From positions 1 through 27,228 of IMG/VR virus record IMGVR_UViG_3300048015_000344: 27,228 bases of DNA. The stretch is one strand, 5' to 3'. The DNA is from a virus. The notes beneath the pieces were generated by a model, which had not been told where the DNA came from, ran no database searches, and saw nothing but the letters and a program-made list of their open reading frames with translations. Positions 1,821 to 23,087 of the stretch are shown one piece after another. A program made the position numbers and the translations under genes. How positions within the stretch are numbered: the first letter of the stretch is position 1; each line of letters starts with the position of its first letter.

Positions 1821-3449
1821 TCAGGCGGCGGCCCGCACCTCCTGACGCGCGTCCTCGCGAATCATGTCGGCCGCTTTCTCGGCGATCATCATGATCGGCG
1901 CGTTCGTGTTGCCCGATACCAAGGTCGGCATGATCGAGCCGTCCACCACACGCAGACCGGCGATTCCGTGCACGCGCAAGCGGTCGTCCACCACCGCCAT
2001 CGGGTCGTGGCCCATCTTGCAGGTGCCGACCGGGTGATAGACCGTCTGGCCGTTGTTGCGGGCCCATTCCAGCCACTCGTCGTCAGTCTGCACCTTGTCG
2101 CCCGGGTTCATCTCGAAATCGCGCCAGCGGTCGAGGATCGGGTTGTGGATGATGCGACGCGCGAGCTTCATGCCGGCGACGAGGCTGCGGCGATCCGCCT
2201 CGGCGGCGAGGAAGTTCGGCCGGATCGCCGGTGCTGCCATCGGGTCGGGTGATTTCAGATGAATCGATCCGGTCGATTCCGGCCGGAGCTGGCAAATCGT
2301 CACCGTCATGCCCGGCAGCGTGTCGAGCTTGCGCTTGGCGATGCTGCTGTAGCTGGCGTGCGCGAAGTGGTACTGAATGTCGGGCGTCTCGAGTTCCGGC
2401 CGCGTGCGCACGAAGCCGTAGACGATGCCCGCGGTGAAGGTCAGCGCGCCGCGCTGCATCAGGTAGTATTTCGCGACTTCCTGCGCGAGCCGCACGCCGC
2501 GCGTCTGCTCGTTGAGCGTCTCGCGCACCTTCACGCGGTAGTTCATGCGCGGCGCGAAGTGGTCCCGCAGGTTCTCGCCCACGCCGCGCAGCTCGTGGCG
2601 TACCTCGATGCCATGCGCGGCGAGCACCTCCGGTCGGCCGATGCCCGACAGCTCCAGGACGTGCGGAGACTGCACGGCGCCGGCGGCCAGCAGGACCTCA
2701 ACGTTGCACCGTGCCTCGCGGTCGGTCCCGCCCTGGCGATAGCGCACGCCGACGCAGCGCTTGCCCTCCAGCAGCAGCCCCGTGGCCTGTGCGTTGGTGA
2801 TCACGTGCAGGTTCGGGCGCCCGCGTGCCGGGTCGAGATAGGCCCGCGCGGAGGACCAGCGCTTCCCGTTCTTCTGCGTGACCTGATAGTAGCCGAAGCC
2901 TTCCTGGTCGCCGTTGTTGTAGTCGGGGTTGCGGGGGAACCCCTCGGCGACGCCGGCCGCGATGAACGCGTCCAGCAGCGGCGCGCGCTCGCGCATGTCG
3001 GCCACGTTCAGCGGTCCGCCGCGCCCGCGCGTCTCGTCGCCGCCGCGCTCGAAATTCTCGGATTTCTTGAAGTAGGGCAGCACCGACTCGTACGACCAGC
3101 CGCGATTGCCGAACTGCGACCACGTGTCGTAGTCGAGCGGCTGTCCGCGCACGTAGAGCATGCCGTTGATCGAGCTCGATCCGCCGAGCGCCTTGCCGCG
3201 CGGAATCGGGATCTTCCGGCCGCGCACATTGTCCTCGGGCTCGGTCTCGAACAGCCAGTTGTAGGTCGGGTGGTTCATCAGCTTGGTGAACCCGGCCGGG
3301 ATGTCGATCCAGAACCCGTTGTCGCGCCCGCCCGCTTCCAGCAGCAGGACCTTGCAGGACGTGTCCTCGGTCAGCCGCGCCGCCAGCACGCAGCCGGCGG
3401 AGCCGGCGCCCACGATGATGTAGTCGTACGATCCCGTCGGCGTTTCCAT
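1821..3449 (-). CDS. GMC family FAD-dependent oxidoreductase (choline/alcohol dehydrogenase-like)
   Basis: A 542-residue complete GMC oxidoreductase; the family oxidises alcohols or choline-type substrates using FAD. Visible motifs: the N-terminal Rossmann dinucleotide-binding loop G-A-G-S-A-G-C (residues about 13-19) followed by E-A-G-G; the first GMC signature G-K-A-L-G-G-S-S-S-I-N-G; the second signature around G-A-V-Q-S-P; and the active-site end Y-H-P-V-G-T-C-K-M-G with His472 as predicted catalytic base, then S-G-N-T-N-A-P with Asn516. No signal peptide is seen, so it is probably cytoplasmic. The ATG at 3449 is preceded by GGGAGA at a good distance; longer starts to 3572 would overlap the lipoprotein gene. 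It lies 31 bp downstream of the lipoprotein gene on the same strand, so the two probably share a transcript. The substrate cannot be read from sequence. A gene of this class inside a phage late region is unusual. Confidence 0.92.
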   Translation of the reverse strand: METPTGSYDYIIVGAGSAGCVLAARLTEDTSCKVLLLEAGGRDNGFWIDIPAGFTKLMNHPTYNWLFETEPEDNVRGRKIPIPRGKALGGSSSINGMLYVRGQPLDYDTWSQFGNRGWSYESVLPYFKKSENFERGGDETRGRGGPLNVADMRERAPLLDAFIAAGVAEGFPRNPDYNNGDQEGFGYYQVTQKNGKRWSSARAYLDPARGRPNLHVITNAQATGLLLEGKRCVGVRYRQGGTDREARCNVEVLLAAGAVQSPHVLELSGIGRPEVLAAHGIEVRHELRGVGENLRDHFAPRMNYRVKVRETLNEQTRGVRLAQEVAKYYLMQRGALTFTAGIVYGFVRTRPELETPDIQYHFAHASYSSIAKRKLDTLPGMTVTICQLRPESTGSIHLKSPDPMAAPAIRPNFLAAEADRRSLVAGMKLARRIIHNPILDRWRDFEMNPGDKVQTDDEWLEWARNNGQTVYHPVGTCKMGHDPMAVVDDRLRVHGIAGLRVVDGSIMPTLVSGNTNAPIMMIAEKAADMIREDARQEVRAAA

Positions 3450-3480
3450 CGCGTTTTCTCCCTGCGTCGTGGCGGACAGC

Positions 3481-3942
3481 CTAGCCGCGGCGCAGCGCCA
3501 CGGTCCACCGGCACGCGCCCGAAACCAGCGTGCCGTCGATCCGCCGCGCGCCGTCCGCGTCCCGCGATGCAACCGCGTCGAGCCGCATGGTCAGGGTTGT
3601 CTGCGCCCCCATGCGCCGCGAAGCCTCGCCCGCGAGCCGCCCCGCATCGTCGACCGTGCCGTGCAGCACCGTGGTCGACTGGAACGGGTCGAAGCCGAAC
3701 GTGTCCCGCCCGATCGTCATCAGGCCGGTGCTGCGCGCCGGGCCGCAGGCGGGATCGGACGACGTGACCGGCCCGGTCCAGCGCCCCTCCAGCCCGCTCA
3801 CAGCGACGACTTCGCCCGTGCCAATGTTGCGAGAGACGCGGCCCGGCAGCGCCGCGACGTCCGAGCATCCGGCGGCGAGCAGCACCGGAAGAAAAAAAAC
3901 CGCTACTAGGAAAATCCGCCTTGCCCGAGTGCCCCAGTCCAT
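3481..3942 (-). CDS. Small lipoprotein of unknown function
   Basis: A 153-residue protein with a clear type II signal peptide: basic N-region (T-R-A-R-R), hydrophobic core (I-F-L-V-A-V-F-F-L-P-V-L) and lipobox L-A-A-G-C with Cys26 as the predicted lipidated residue. The mature part is about 128 residues, probably beta-rich, with two cysteines (D-P-A-C-G and G-A-C-R-W) that could form a disulfide in the periplasm; it repeats the style W-T-G-P-V-T / L-H-G-T-V-D / I-D-G-T-L of small outer-membrane or periplasmic beta-barrel lipoproteins. I do not recognise the family. The ATG at 3942 has GGAG about 7 bases upstream; an in-frame start at 4092 would run through the divergent terminase-side region and lacks the signal peptide at its end. 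It is the first gene of the minus-strand pair with the GMC oxidoreductase. Confidence 0.75.
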   Translation of the reverse strand: MDWGTRARRIFLVAVFFLPVLLAAGCSDVAALPGRVSRNIGTGEVVAVSGLEGRWTGPVTSSDPACGPARSTGLMTIGRDTFGFDPFQSTTVLHGTVDDAGRLAGEASRRMGAQTTLTMRLDAVASRDADGARRIDGTLVSGACRWTVALRRG

Positions 3943-11247: not shown

Positions 11248-12807
11248 ATGCCGATCGTCCAGCAGGGCAGCATCAACACCACCGCCCTCGTCGTCCCCGA
11301 TCTCTACGTGCAGATCGTGGCACCGCAGAACCTGGTGCTCAACGGCGTGCCGACCAACGTGCTCGGAATTGTCGGCACCGCGTCCTGGGGGCCCGTGGGG
11401 CAGCCGGTGATCGTGGCGACGATGGCGGATTATGCGCGCATCTTCGGCCCGATCGTCGCGCGCAAGTTCGACATGGGCACGCAGGTCGCGGTCGCGGTGC
11501 AGCAGGGCGCACAGGATTTCCGCTGCGTCCGCGCGACCGACGGCACCGACACCGCCGCCCAGATCGCGATCCCGGGCACCACCGCGACCATCACCGCGCT
11601 CTATTCCGGCACGCTCGGCAACGCCATCGCGGCGACGCTCGCGCCGGGCAGCCGCGCCGGCTCCTGGCGGCTCACCGTGACGCTGCCGGGGCTGCAGCCG
11701 GAGGTGTTCGACAACATCGCCGGCGCGGGTGCCGCGTTCTGGACGGCGCTCGCCGCCGCGGTCAACACCGGGACGGGCGTGCAGCGCGGACCCTCCCAGC
11801 TCGTCGTGCTCAACGCAGGCGGCACCACCGCGACGCCTTCGGCCTTCGCCGTCACGCTCGGCGCCGGCACGCCCGGCAGCGACGGCGCGCAGGTCTCGGC
11901 GGCCACCCTGGTCGGCGCAGACGTGGTGCCGCGCACGGGCATGTATGCGCTGCGCGGCCAGAATTGCGGCATCGCGCTGCTGGCGGACGCGGACGATCCG
12001 GCGCAGTGGACGACCCAGGCGGGCTTCGGCCTCTCCGAGGGCGTCTACATGATCCTCACCGGACCGGCGGGCGACAGCGTGCAGAACGCGATCGCCACCA
12101 AGCAGTCGGCCGGCCTCGACAGCTACGCGGCCAAGCTGATGTTCGGCGACTGGCTGTGGTGGAACGACCGTGTCAACGCGACCGTGCGGCTGGTATCGCC
12201 GCAGGGCTTCGCCGCCGGCCGCCTCGCCAACCTCTCGCCCGAGCAGAGCAGCCTCAACAAGCAGCTCTACGGCGTCGTCGGCAGCCAGAAATCCGGCGCG
12301 CCGGGGACCGGGCAGGCGACCTCCTACTCGGCCGCCGAGCTCTCCGCGCTGCTCGGCGCGGGCATCGACGTGATCGCCAATCCGCAGCCGGCGGGCGCGT
12401 TCTGGGGCGTGCGCGGCGGCCACAACGCGTCCTCCAACGCGGCGATCAACGGCGACAACTATACGCGCATGACGAACTACATCGCCGCCACGCTCGCCGC
12501 CGGCATGGGCCAGTATGTGGGGCAGGTCATCAACGCCGACCTGTTCCGCCGCGTGCGCGCGACGCAGCTCAGCTTCCTGCAGAACATGCTCTCGCAGGGG
12601 CTGCTCGGCAGCACCGACGGATCGGCGCCGTTCGCCGTCGTGTGCGACACGTCGAACAACCCGGCGAGCCGCACCGGCCTCGGCTACGTCCAGTCCGACG
12701 CGCAGGTGCGCTACCAGGCCATCAACGAGAAGTTCATCGTCAACATGGAGGGCGGCCAGACCGTCCAGGTCAGCCGTCAGACGCTGCCCTCCGGTCAGCC
12801 GGCCTGA
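11248..12807 (+). CDS. Contractile tail sheath protein
   Basis: A 519-residue tail sheath subunit; it forms the outer tube that contracts to drive the inner tube through the host envelope. The N-terminal strand (I-N-T-T-A-L-V-V-P-D-L-Y-V-Q-I) and following G-I-V-G-T-A-S-W-G-P-V-G are typical, as is the C-terminal domain with Q-P-A-G-A-F-W-G-V-R-G-G-H-N and N-Y-T-R-M-T-N-Y-I-A-A-T-L, ending in a strand that interlocks neighbours. Length is usual for P2/Mu-type sheaths or slightly longer. The presence of sheath plus tube and gpJ/gpW/gpV genes proves a contractile tail. Confidence 0.93.
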   Translation: MPIVQQGSINTTALVVPDLYVQIVAPQNLVLNGVPTNVLGIVGTASWGPVGQPVIVATMADYARIFGPIVARKFDMGTQVAVAVQQGAQDFRCVRATDGTDTAAQIAIPGTTATITALYSGTLGNAIAATLAPGSRAGSWRLTVTLPGLQPEVFDNIAGAGAAFWTALAAAVNTGTGVQRGPSQLVVLNAGGTTATPSAFAVTLGAGTPGSDGAQVSAATLVGADVVPRTGMYALRGQNCGIALLADADDPAQWTTQAGFGLSEGVYMILTGPAGDSVQNAIATKQSAGLDSYAAKLMFGDWLWWNDRVNATVRLVSPQGFAAGRLANLSPEQSSLNKQLYGVVGSQKSGAPGTGQATSYSAAELSALLGAGIDVIANPQPAGAFWGVRGGHNASSNAAINGDNYTRMTNYIAATLAAGMGQYVGQVINADLFRRVRATQLSFLQNMLSQGLLGSTDGSAPFAVVCDTSNNPASRTGLGYVQSDAQVRYQAINEKFIVNMEGGQTVQVSRQTLPSGQPA

Positions 12808-12822
12808 AGGAGATCGTAGATC

Positions 12823-13251
12823 ATGGCGAACCCCACTTTCTCCCTCGGCCGCGACTGTCAGCTCGTGGTCATCGGCCCCGCGGGGCGCATCGACCTGACG
12901 CATGTGACCGGCTTCGAATCGCGCCAGGTCACGCAGCCGGTGCGCGTCGACCGGCTCGACGGCACGCAGATGGCGGCCGAGTTGCCGAAGGGCTGGGACG
13001 GCAGCTTCGACATCGAGCGCGGCAACTCGGCGGCCGATGATTTCATCGCCGCCGCCGAGACGCAGTACCATGCGGGCTCGGTGGTGCCGTCGGGCACGCT
13101 CTACCAGTACGTAACCGAGCCGGACGGGTCGACTTCGACCTATCAATACGACCGCGTCGTGTTCAAGCTCGCCAGCTCCGGGCAGTGGAAGGGCGACAGC
13201 AGCGTCAAGCAGAAGCTGGAGTTCTTCGCCGCCCGGCGGAGCCGCGTCTGA
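12823..13251 (+). CDS. Tail tube protein
   Basis: A 142-residue protein directly after the sheath. It has a compact beta pattern (T-F-S-L-G-R-D-C-Q-L-V-V-I ... G-R-I-D-L-T-H-V-T-G-F-E-S-R) and ends with a strand K-L-E-F-F-A-A-R. The size and position match the tube that lines contractile tails. AAGGAGA lies about 11 bases before the ATG. Its stop overlaps the next ATG by one base (TGATG). Confidence 0.85.
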   Translation: MANPTFSLGRDCQLVVIGPAGRIDLTHVTGFESRQVTQPVRVDRLDGTQMAAELPKGWDGSFDIERGNSAADDFIAAAETQYHAGSVVPSGTLYQYVTEPDGSTSTYQYDRVVFKLASSGQWKGDSSVKQKLEFFAARRSRV

Positions 13252-13601
13252 TGACGCCGAGTGCCGCGATCGTCGCCGCTGCCGCCGCCGCGCATGACGT
13301 GCGCGACGCGGAGGGTCGTGTGCTGACGATCGCGCGTCTCGGCGTGCTCGACCGGCTGCGGCTGTTCAAGGCGGCGGGTGCGGAGCTGGCGCGCAACGAC
13401 ACGTGGCTCGGGATGGCGATGCTTGCCTGCTCGGTGCGCGCGATCGACGGCGTGCCGATGCCGCAGCCGGCGAGCGAGGCGATGATCGAGGCCGCGGTCG
13501 CGCGGTTGGGCGAGGCGGGCATCGCCGCCGCCGCCGCTGCCTTCGCCCCCGAGGAGGCGGCGCCACCGCGCGCGCAGGTGGCGGCCGACGCGGGAAACTG
13601 A
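13251..13601 (+). CDS. Tail assembly chaperone, short (zero-frame) form
   Basis: A 116-residue protein in the slot of lambda gpG/P2 gpE: between tube and tape measure. It has an N-terminal helical domain (A-A-A-A-A-H-D-V-R-D-A-E-G-R-V-L-T-I-A-R), a segment G-V-L-D-R-L-R-L-F-K-A-A-G-A-E-L-A and an Ala-rich C-terminus. The ATG overlaps the tube stop by one base. The last two sense codons (GGA AAC) together with the preceding G form a slippery heptamer just before TGA; most ribosomes should stop here and make this short chaperone, which in related phages helps the tape measure and tube assemble. Confidence 0.85.
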   Translation: MTPSAAIVAAAAAAHDVRDAEGRVLTIARLGVLDRLRLFKAAGAELARNDTWLGMAMLACSVRAIDGVPMPQPASEAMIEAAVARLGEAGIAAAAAAFAPEEAAPPRAQVAADAGN

Positions 13602-13765
13602 GCCGGCACCCCGACCTGATCGACTGCCTGTATCTGGTCAGGAACGGGGTGCCGTTCGACGTGGCGTTCAGCCTGGACGAGACCGAGCGGCTGGCCTGGG
13701 TGGTGGCCCTCGGCACGCTCGACGGGCGCGCGTTCGACTGGCGCGCGCTGGCCTGGGTCGATTGA
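13251..13765 (+). CDS. Tail assembly chaperone, -1 frameshift (GT-type) fusion
   Basis: Predicted 171-residue product when ribosomes slip -1 on G GGA AAC at 13592-13598. The shifted frame continues G-K-L-S-R-H-P-D-L-I-D-C-L-Y-L-V and ends D-W-R-A-L-A-W-V-D at 13765. This 56-residue extension has a protein-like helical composition (D-E-T-E-R-L-A-W-V-V-A-L-G-T-L-D-G-R) of the sort found in GT-type tail-chaperone extensions, and no start codon of its own with a ribosome-binding site. In lambda the fused form recruits the tail tube protein to the tape-measure scaffold. The extension overlaps the short form only at the slip site. The 3' end lies 11 bases before the next ATG. Synthesis by frameshifting is inferred; the signal is seen directly. 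Confidence 0.85.
13592..13654 (+). promoter_or_regulatory. Programmed -1 ribosomal frameshift signal
   Basis: The heptamer G GGA AAC (13592-13598) is in the right frame (X XXY YYZ) and directly precedes the zero-frame stop TGA (13599-13601). After a 5-nt spacer (13599-13603) a perfect 10-bp stem begins: 13604-13613 pairs with 13645-13654. Inside it a second stem pairs 13615-13622 with 13635-13642 (five Watson-Crick pairs, then a G-T, C-G and G-T). The arrangement of slippery site, short spacer and stable stem-loop is the classic frameshift architecture, here on a tail-chaperone gene as in lambda (G GGA AAG). Confidence 0.88.
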
Positions 13766-13776
13766 GGGATGTTGCG

Positions 13777-14175
13777 ATGATCGTCTGGCGGCAAGGCGGC
13801 GGCGCGCTCGCGGCGCTCGATCGGGCGCTTGCGCGCGCGACGGCGGCGGCGTCGGAAGCGGCGCGCGCGGCGCTCGCCGCGGAGGCGGCCTCGCTCGCGG
13901 GCGCGGTCGCGAGCGTGCTGGCCGATCCGCCCGGCGGCGACCATCGCGTGCCGTGGCGGCGGACGGGCGCGCTGCACGACAGCATCGGCGACGCGGCCGA
14001 GGGCGAGCGGGCGACGGTCGGCTCGACCGATCCGGCCGCGGTCGATCAGGAGCTGGGCACGCGCAGCATTCCGCCGCGCCCGTTCCTCGCACCCGTCGCC
14101 GCCGCGGTAGCGCTGGATGCGGCTTCGCGCGTGGGCGCGGCGGCGGCGGATGCGATCGGGGAGGCGCTGCGGTGA
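13777..14175 (+). CDS. HK97 gp10-like tail completion protein
   Basis: A 132-residue protein. The first half is an Ala/Arg-rich helix; the second half contains W-R-R-T-G-A-L-H-D-S-I-G, V-G-S-T-D-P-A-A-V-D-Q-E-L-G-T and I-P-P-R-P-F-L-A-P, the conserved sequence of HK97 gp10-type minor tail/tail-completion proteins. Such genes normally lie before the sheath/tube genes; here it sits between the chaperone and the tape-measure candidate. The ATG at 13777 has GAGG 9 bases upstream; the TTG at 13762 is rejected. The TGA overlaps the next GTG (GTGA). Confidence 0.75.
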   Translation: MIVWRQGGGALAALDRALARATAAASEAARAALAAEAASLAGAVASVLADPPGGDHRVPWRRTGALHDSIGDAAEGERATVGSTDPAAVDQELGTRSIPPRPFLAPVAAAVALDAASRVGAAAADAIGEALR

Positions 14176-15227
14176 TCGACGCCTATACGATCGGCATCAC
14201 GCTCGCGCTCGAGGACGGCGTGGGCGCGGGCATCGCCGCGATCCGCGCCGAACTCGCTGCCCTCGACCGCGCGACGGAGGCCTCCGCCGCCCGGCTCCGG
14301 GCGCTCCGGGCGCTGGCCGCCGAGGCGGGCGCGCCCGCGCTTCCGACGCCGCACCCGGCCGCTGTGCCGCCCTGGCCGCAGCCGGCGCCTGCACGCGCTG
14401 CGACGGTGGAGGCGGGCGATCCGGTCGAGGCCGCACGGCGCGTGGTCGTGGCGGCGCGCGATGTCTCCGGAACGCCCGCGCCCGCGGCGGAGCGGCCCGC
14501 GCCGGTGCCGGCACCGGTCGCATCGCCGGCGCCTCGGCCTGCACCGATCTCGCTCGCGCCAATCGTCGTGACCCGAACGGCACCGGCCGCGTCTGACCCG
14601 CCCGCGCCGTTGCCGCCTCCGCTCCGCGCCGAAGAGCCGGCACGACCCGCCGTGGCGCCCGCGCGTGCGGAGCCGATCCCGAACGCGCCGCGCCCACCGG
14701 CCATCGCGCCGGCACCGCCGGCTCAGACGCCGTCCGCCGCGCCGGCGCGCGAATCGGCGGCGCACGCGCCAGCGCCGCACGCGCGGGCGCATCGCGAGCC
14801 GGCGCCGCGCCCGCACGCGGCACGGCTTGCCACGGGATCGGCGCCGCTCGCGTCGCCCGTTCTCCGTCCGCCGGCATTGTCGCTCCCCGCCGCAAGTCCG
14901 GCGCGGCGCGACGCGCCGCCGAGCGTCGCGCCGCTGGCGCCACCGGCATCGCCGCCGTCCAGGGCGGCGCTGGATCCGATCGTCGGCCGGCCGGCGGCCC
15001 CTGCCCGCGCGCCGGCGACGGACGCGGCGGAGGCCTCGCGCACGACCGCCGCAACGGCGGAGCGGCGGTCGGAGGGGGCGGCGGTTTCGGTCTATCTCGA
15101 CGGCGCCGTGATGGCGCGCTGGCTCGACGACACGCTGGCGCGCGCCATCGTCCGCCCCGGCGCGGGCACGAGCGGCGTCGATCCGCGCATCACCCCGCTC
15201 TGGCCCGGCGCGCCGACCGGCCATTGA
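14172..15227 (+). CDS. Short Pro/Ala-rich tape measure candidate
   Basis: A 351-residue protein in the tape-measure position, starting with GTG that overlaps the previous stop by 4 bases. Residues 1-50 form a helix (I-D-A-Y-T-I-G-I-T-L-A-L-E-D-G-V-G-A-G-I) like the start of tape measures from related phages. From about 55 to 300 the sequence is nearly all Pro, Ala, Arg and Ser; I count about 68 prolines in the whole protein (about 19%). The last 50 residues return to a folded pattern (V-S-V-Y-L-D-G-A-V-M-A-R-W-L-D-D) ending I-T-P-L-W-P-G. Tape measures set tail length and are usually long and helical, often with hydrophobic segments; none is seen here. It may be a very short tape measure, a degenerated one or another tail factor. 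No other candidate exists between chaperone and baseplate genes. Confidence 0.6.
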   Translation: MIDAYTIGITLALEDGVGAGIAAIRAELAALDRATEASAARLRALRALAAEAGAPALPTPHPAAVPPWPQPAPARAATVEAGDPVEAARRVVVAARDVSGTPAPAAERPAPVPAPVASPAPRPAPISLAPIVVTRTAPAASDPPAPLPPPLRAEEPARPAVAPARAEPIPNAPRPPAIAPAPPAQTPSAAPARESAAHAPAPHARAHREPAPRPHAARLATGSAPLASPVLRPPALSLPAASPARRDAPPSVAPLAPPASPPSRAALDPIVGRPAAPARAPATDAAEASRTTAATAERRSEGAAVSVYLDGAVMARWLDDTLARAIVRPGAGTSGVDPRITPLWPGAPTGH

Positions 15228-22079: not shown

Positions 22080-23087
22080 ATGCCCACCATCACGCAGTTG
22101 CCGCAGGCGACGCAGGTCAACCCGCAGGACGAGCTGCTGCTGAGCCAGAACGGCGTCGCGAGCGTCGCCACCGTCGCGACCGTTCTGACCGGGCTGCAGC
22201 CGGCGGTGATCGCGCCGACCGGGCAGTTGCTCGGGCGGGTGAGCGTCGGCCCGGGCGGGCCAGAGCCGGTGGCGGTCGGCACCGGGCTGACGCTGTCGGC
22301 GGCGGTGCTGGCGGCGACGGGCGCCGACCATGCGGGCTTCCCGCCGCAGACGAGTCTGATGGCGACCGACGAGGTGGTGCTCAACAGCGCGGGCGCGCCG
22401 CGGCGCATGGCGCTGTCCCTGCTGCGCGGGCTGTTCTCGGCCGGCAGCAACGTCGCGATCGACGCCAACGGCACGATCTCGGCGACGTCCGGCGGTGGCG
22501 GAGGCGGCGCCGGCGTGCAGGGTCCGCCCGGCCCGCAGGGTCCCGCCGGCCCGTCGGGGGCAGCGGGCGCGACCGGCCCCGCCGGTCCGGCCGGGCCGCA
22601 GGGGCCGACGGGTCCGGCCGGGCCGCAGGGGCCGACGGGTCCGGCCGGGCCGCAGGGGCCGACGGGTCCGGCCGGGCCTGCCGGCGCAACCGGCGCGGCT
22701 GGCGCCACCGGGGCAACCGGCGCGGCTGGTCCGGCGGGCGCTGTCGGACCGACGGGGCCGGCCTGGGTGCCGCCGTTCCGCGCGAGCGCGACCGCGGCCG
22801 ACACGCCCACGCTCGCCGACAGCCTCGGCTTCATCGCCTACACCGGCAGCGCCGCCGTGACCGTCACCGCGAACGATCTGGGTGCCGGGATTTCCTACAC
22901 CGTCCAGCAGCAGGGCGCGGGGCAGGTGACGGTGCAGGCCGGCACGCTGGTCGCGGGCGTCGCGGGCAGCGTCACGCTCGTCTCCGACAAGTCGCCGGCG
23001 AGTTTCACGACCGCGCGGCAGGGGGCGGCGATGACGCTCGTCTGCACCGGCGCGGGGCGCGTCTTCGTGGTCGGCAACACGCAGTAG
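22080..23087 (+). CDS. Collagen-like tail fibre protein
   Basis: A 335-residue protein. Residues 1-135 form a globular part ([18 protein letters not shown]) likely for baseplate docking. Residues 145-228 are 28 uninterrupted G-X-Y triplets, mainly G-P-A, G-P-Q, G-P-T and G-A-T, which should form a collagen-type trimer rod without hydroxyproline. The last 105 residues form a beta-rich head ([14 protein letters not shown]) that may trimerise and contact the host. Three identical 27-bp DNA repeats lie inside the triplet region, so length variation by slippage or recombination is likely. Confidence 0.85.
22584..22678 (+). repeat. 27-bp tandem repeat, three identical copies
   Basis: Units at 22584-22610, 22611-22637 and 22638-22664 are identical, followed by 14 matching bases. 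Each encodes nine residues as three G-X-Y triplets (about G-P-A, G-P-Q, G-P-T). Identity at third codon positions points to recent duplication, not selection on protein alone. Confidence 0.9.

Follow-up and report, generated by a model that had tools for sequence, protein, structure and literature searches.

Comparison of sequences makes it very probable that a programmed -1 ribosomal frameshift produces two proteins from one tail assembly chaperone gene in the viral DNA analysed here. The window, that is, the whole stretch of 27,228 nucleotides that was analysed, corresponds to IMG/VR record IMGVR_UViG_3300048015_000344. The slippery heptamer GGGAAAC (13592..13598, plus strand) falls into the codons G GGA AAC when read from the ATG at 13251 and is followed directly by the zero-frame stop UGA (13599..13601, plus strand), exactly as the sequence-only reading of this DNA had reported. 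This stop, an "intercodon" adjoining the heptamer, is the only one of the 667 stop codons in any frame of the window to be adjoined by an X XXY YYZ heptamer (Y = A or T). Heptamer, stem, stop and coding in the -1 frame are all conserved, and hundreds of related phages, from alpha-, beta- and gammaproteobacteria, carry the conserved frameshift signal.

The genes of the window follow the order terminase, capsid, sheath, presumed tube, chaperone gene, connector-like gene and a 351-aa ORF. The tail sheath gene (519 aa, 11248..12807, plus strand; PHROG 23 tail sheath, E = 4.7e-44) is followed by a presumed tail tube gene (142 aa, 12823..13251, plus strand), which is named from its place after the sheath, matches PHROG 12993 (function unnamed) and has 269 relatives on viral contigs. 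Its TGA overlaps the ATG of the chaperone gene (TGATG), which lies directly 3' and encodes a short product of 116 aa ending in A-G-N-stop (13251..13601, plus strand). Next come a connector/virion-morphogenesis-like gene (13777..14175, plus strand; PHROG 5 "tail completion or Neck1", E = 9.8e-9) and the Pro/Ala-rich 351-aa ORF (14172..15227, plus strand), which had no family match and is placed as the tape measure from position only. The tape-measure region of relatives holds ORFs of mostly about 250-430 aa, and of 742 aa in phiKX1. Elsewhere in the window, genes for a PEP-CTERM-sorted protein (TIGR02595; 931-1659, minus strand) and a choline-dehydrogenase-like GMC oxidoreductase (NF002550 above cutoff; 1821-3572, minus strand) stand between phage-type early ORFs and the terminase and are possibly cargo genes or host sequence, and a presumed tail fibre ORF (22080-23087) contains collagen-like GPxGPx repeats at 22500-22730.

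The earlier naming of the gene as a tail chaperone fits the order sheath, presumed tube, this gene. The short product matched PHROG 20383 (E = 1.9e-22, function unnamed) and had no match in Pfam or NCBIfam. Its AF2 model was of high confidence (pLDDT 92); a PDB fold search placed the HK97 chaperone 2ob9 second and fourth with non-significant E-values, and a search of viral models returned several annotated chaperones with probabilities up to 0.96, these matches being weak by E-value (0.04-0.9). The assignment rests mainly on gene order and on the frameshift itself, and the fold fits it weakly.

Related loci were gathered with the tube and the extension as queries, and comprised 80 from viral contigs, 80 further loci from bacterial genomes (mainly Acetobacteraceae and Rhodospirillales), 14 loci near phiKX1 and more added by the extension query; the chaperone itself as a query against viral contigs gave no match. 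After duplicates and near-duplicates were dropped, 163 Acetobacteraceae-type representatives less than 95% identical were retained. Among these, the heptamer was GGGAAAC in 142, AAAAAAC in 20 and GGGAAAT in one, and the change between GGG and AAA was always concerted, with no mixed forms. A slippery site needs such a block-wise switch and the protein does not, which supports a slippery site. One locus has lost the heptamer (L124) and another carries a 1-nt deletion (L063), and heptamer and abutting stop recur in phage regions on Pantoea, Aquitalea, Paraburkholderia and Rhodovastum plasmids. On the Rhodovastum atsumiense plasmid RHOApd (L268, around 2780-2836), C CCU UUG is found 18 nt before the stop, not an abutting A-type heptamer. 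Four Acetobacteraceae hosts (L256, L257, L259-L263, L265) encode both tRNA-Lys(UUU) and tRNA-Lys(CUU); we suggest that AAG may slip poorly with tRNA-Lys(CUU) present, which may be why heptamers end in AAC, but the Pantoea clade uses AAC as well.

Folding of the RNA 13590-13660 and comparison of homologous loci, both proposed with the sequence-only reading, bore out a hairpin downstream of the heptamer. The segment folds with a minimum free energy of -35.6 kcal/mol (z = -4.36), and none of 200 shuffled sequences was as stable; across relatives, heptamer and stem are kept and other synonymous sites vary. The perfect 10-bp stem 5 nt from the heptamer that had been read is present in the window (13604-13613 with 13645-13654, spacer TGAGC, plus an inner stem), but its tenth pair, 13604-13654, is broken in about half of the relatives (54% weighted). 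The presumed stimulatory hairpin (13605..13653, plus strand) is thus best described by the conserved 9-bp stem 13605-13613/13645-13653, with a 6-nt spacer and a 31-nt loop, which is kept as 8-9 bp across relatives. Its pairs hold in roughly 93-100% of sequences (weighted), with changes mostly between C-G and U-G, and in 58 diverse sequences the nine pairs are nearly always intact, the replacements being U-G, G-U and two U-A. The inner 8-bp stem likewise exists in the window but is not conserved pair by pair, its pairs being broken in 9 to 32 of the 58 diverse sequences, and neither a conserved inner stem nor any other long-range pairing stood out. Pair 16-60 differs between clades: 162 of 163 Acetobacteraceae-type sequences have C-G, and 52 of the 60 others have A-U. 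In relatives on Pantoea plasmids and in similar viral contigs, the stem reads GAACCCCGG/CCGGGGUUC, with one pair A-U for C-G. In the most distant relatives (L339-L346), heptamer and stop are retained and this hairpin is absent; Rfam held no match to the element. Within the Acetobacteraceae-type set alone, the stem varies too little for shuffle controls of covariation to be more than weak, and support for the stem comes from synonymous freezing and between-clade covariation.

The -1 frame extension (13598..13765, plus strand) runs to the TGA at 13763-13765 and adds 55 residues from the slip on, beginning with Leu, so that the predicted fusion product has 171 aa. The 56 residues given earlier include the Lys of the heptamer, and counting its Gly-Lys gives 57. 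Of the changes at loop codons 8-17, 63% are synonymous in the -1 frame vs 10% and 12% in the other two, which indicates translation of the -1 frame immediately 3' of the heptamer; across relatives, the ORF is conserved as a protein and lacks a start of its own. The public annotations of the relatives examined on Rhodovastum, Pantoea and Paraburkholderia plasmids omit this extension and leave about 165-200 nt unannotated 3' of the chaperone gene (L268 2837-3032; L269 3313-3493; L349 3316-3480; L350 3245-3413).

Could the downstream frame instead be a separate gene, with its own start codon or re-initiation after the UGA? The lack of an own start claimed by the sequence-only reading is not readable from the window, where the -1 frame is open for about 300 nt upstream and offers a GTG at 13403; moreover, a GTG at heptamer position 58 is invariant, and the annotators of phiKX1 placed an independent CDS there, beginning a short way past the stop. 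The claim does hold in the relatives, however, with any start codon absent from -60 to +15 in 157 of the 163 representatives and the -1 frame closed by a stop 22-50 nt upstream in many. Since codons 8-17 are under -1 frame protein constraint and lie upstream of the invariant GTG, and since those 157 representatives are startless, the -1 frame would have to be entered at the heptamer. Homologues with an independent extension gene and a lack of conservation of heptamer and stem had both been named as grounds for abandoning frameshifting; among the homologues found, none encodes the extension in a gene of its own with a conserved start, and both elements are conserved, which a separate gene would leave unexplained. 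We regard a separate gene as very unlikely. Slippage by RNA polymerase during transcription, for which the six-A run of the AAAAAAC variants would be a suitable substrate, appears more improbable again: the 142 GGGAAAC representatives, which include the window, have at most three identical bases running, and a conserved hairpin 6-7 nt downstream together with an abutting stop is the layout of ribosomal frameshifting. We give almost no credence to the idea that heptamer and stem reflect amino-acid constraint only (G-N, R-H-P, G-V-P) plus GC-rich codon bias, with no recoding signal. These residues are well conserved, but codon choice is frozen further than they require: Gly-19 is GGG in 160/162 and Val-20 is GTG in 163/163, for which usage predicts 27% and 49%, and Pro-21 uses all four codons. 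Codons 1-7 and 18-20, which cover heptamer, spacer and stem arms, have a codon homozygosity 1.6-3 times that expected from usage in the same genes; at codon 21 and most later codons this ratio is about 1. It is also raised at a few loop codons, including Leu codons 9 and 15, which may reflect partly a second stop at +18 and partly the inner stem. In the Pantoea clade, codon 6 changes from His to Asn and Val-20 from GTG to GTT, and the pair is kept.

Returning to programmed ribosomal frameshifting, the stop itself appears to be part of what is conserved. It abuts the heptamer in 142 of the 163 representatives (UGA 128, UAA 12, UAG 2). Such a stop might arise incidentally, with no function of its own, where Leu-CTG precedes Ser-AGC in the -1 frame, given that these genes use CTG more than any other Leu codon (52% of CTN) and that 21 representatives lack an abutting stop. 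The choice of Leu codon at the site nevertheless follows the stop: where the next base is A, CTG or CTA is used in 139/145 (expected 56%), and where it is G, so that CTG gives no stop, CTG is used in 0/18. In beta/gammaproteobacterial and other distant relatives, where the next codon is mostly Ala, Leu is CTA (giving UAG) in 10 of 12 clusters (less than 75% identical) in which only CTA gives a stop, a codon that otherwise makes up 1.8% of CTN. Furthermore, all 21 representatives without an abutting stop have one at +18 nt, vs 72 of the 142 others (p = 5e-6), in a comparison that, like the other stop-retention tests, controls for relatedness only partly and roughly, by clustering. Because three different stops are kept through different codons, we argue for selection on the abutting stop itself, and consider a functionless by-product improbable.

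Most simply, the stop would end the zero-frame product before out-of-frame residues are added, merely avoiding a junk C-terminal tail; possibly, release-factor competition at the stop keeps the fusion output low. For the HIV-1 element, frameshifting is reported to fall when a stop intercodon is present and, in bacteria, to have been abolished by additional RF2 (PMC4373837). A more tentative proposal, to which we lend less than even weight, is that the stop intercodon works within the signal, with release-factor decoding competing with slippage and setting the short-to-fusion ratio, and that this termination-tuned layout is shared by at least two chaperone families of proteobacterial phages that are unrelated in sequence.

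We infer slippage, its rate and the roles of the two products along the following lines. Most ribosomes would decode the heptamer as G GGA AAC and be released at the adjoining stop, yielding the 116-aa chaperone. The hairpin, about 6 nt further on, would make a minority pause; their tRNAs for Gly and Asn would re-pair one base back on GGG AAA, and translation would go on from CUG in the -1 frame to give the 171-aa fusion. Lambda G/GT suggests by analogy that the short form may coat the tape measure and the fusion may recruit the tube protein; lambda needs a product ratio of about 30:1 (PMC5009743). The heptamer-stem spacing of 6-7 nt is consistent with a slip that takes place while AAC occupies the A site and the stop is still undecoded. 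The junction peptide is therefore probably A-G-N-L-S, given slippage after AAC decoding, rather than the A-G-K-L-S proposed for mass spectrometry, which would arise only if the slip precedes decoding.

It is debated whether slippage waits until the next codon has entered the A site, and in nature stops beside -1 slippery sites are known from a few eukaryotic viruses. The present phage group offers a natural series in which the stop codon is of three kinds and lies at 0, +6 or +18 nt, the heptamer is of the G- or the A-type, and the hairpin covaries or is absent. It is a clean system in which to study how a ribosome decides between termination and slippage. Its junction residue, Asn or Lys, reports the timing of the slip, a readout that lambda GGGAAAG, with Lys in both cases, cannot give. 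Two-product tail chaperones that arise by -1 frameshifting are a known class; as far as literature searches show, this chaperone family, its covarying hairpin and its selected abutting stop are undescribed.

As in lambda G/G-T, a -1 slip would occur near the 3' end of a tail gene on a G GGA AAN heptamer and give a short and an extended product. However, the lambda GGGAAAG lies 15 nt before the stop, whereas here GGGAAAC abuts it, a conserved hairpin follows, the extension is 55 residues long, and there is no sequence family match. In P2 gpE/gpE+E', 18 nt separate TTTTTTG from the stop, and the tape measure comes immediately after; here a connector-like gene stands between. In two phage sets analysed with PRFect, heptamer and stop were on average 26 and 36 nt apart (PMC10885494). 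Closer in layout are the Caulobacter phages phiCbK (AAAAAAC|UAA) and CcrColossus (GGGAAAC|UGA), also phages of Alphaproteobacteria, with the same heptamers adjoining the stop, although these are siphophages with a sequence-unrelated pre-tape-measure chaperone and a longer extension. Where these slippery sites are named in the literature, stop adjacency is not discussed (PMC3556154). Among ten members of that family examined, heptamer and stop are 0 nt apart in six, 3 nt in three and 39 nt in one. AAAAAAC or GGGAAAC abuts the stop in unrelated siphophage chaperones of phiCbK, Colossus and Citromicrobium, Dinoroseobacter and Rhodobacter phages (L352 7278-7287; L353 16055-16064; L357, L359 and L360). 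The stop-abutting heptamer, which the sequence-only reading held worth describing in this phage group, is thus conserved here but shared with these others. Beyond phages, the arrangement resembles sites of eukaryotic viruses in having a stop codon immediately 3' of a -1 slippery site, although those are read by eukaryotic ribosomes and lie in unrelated genes.
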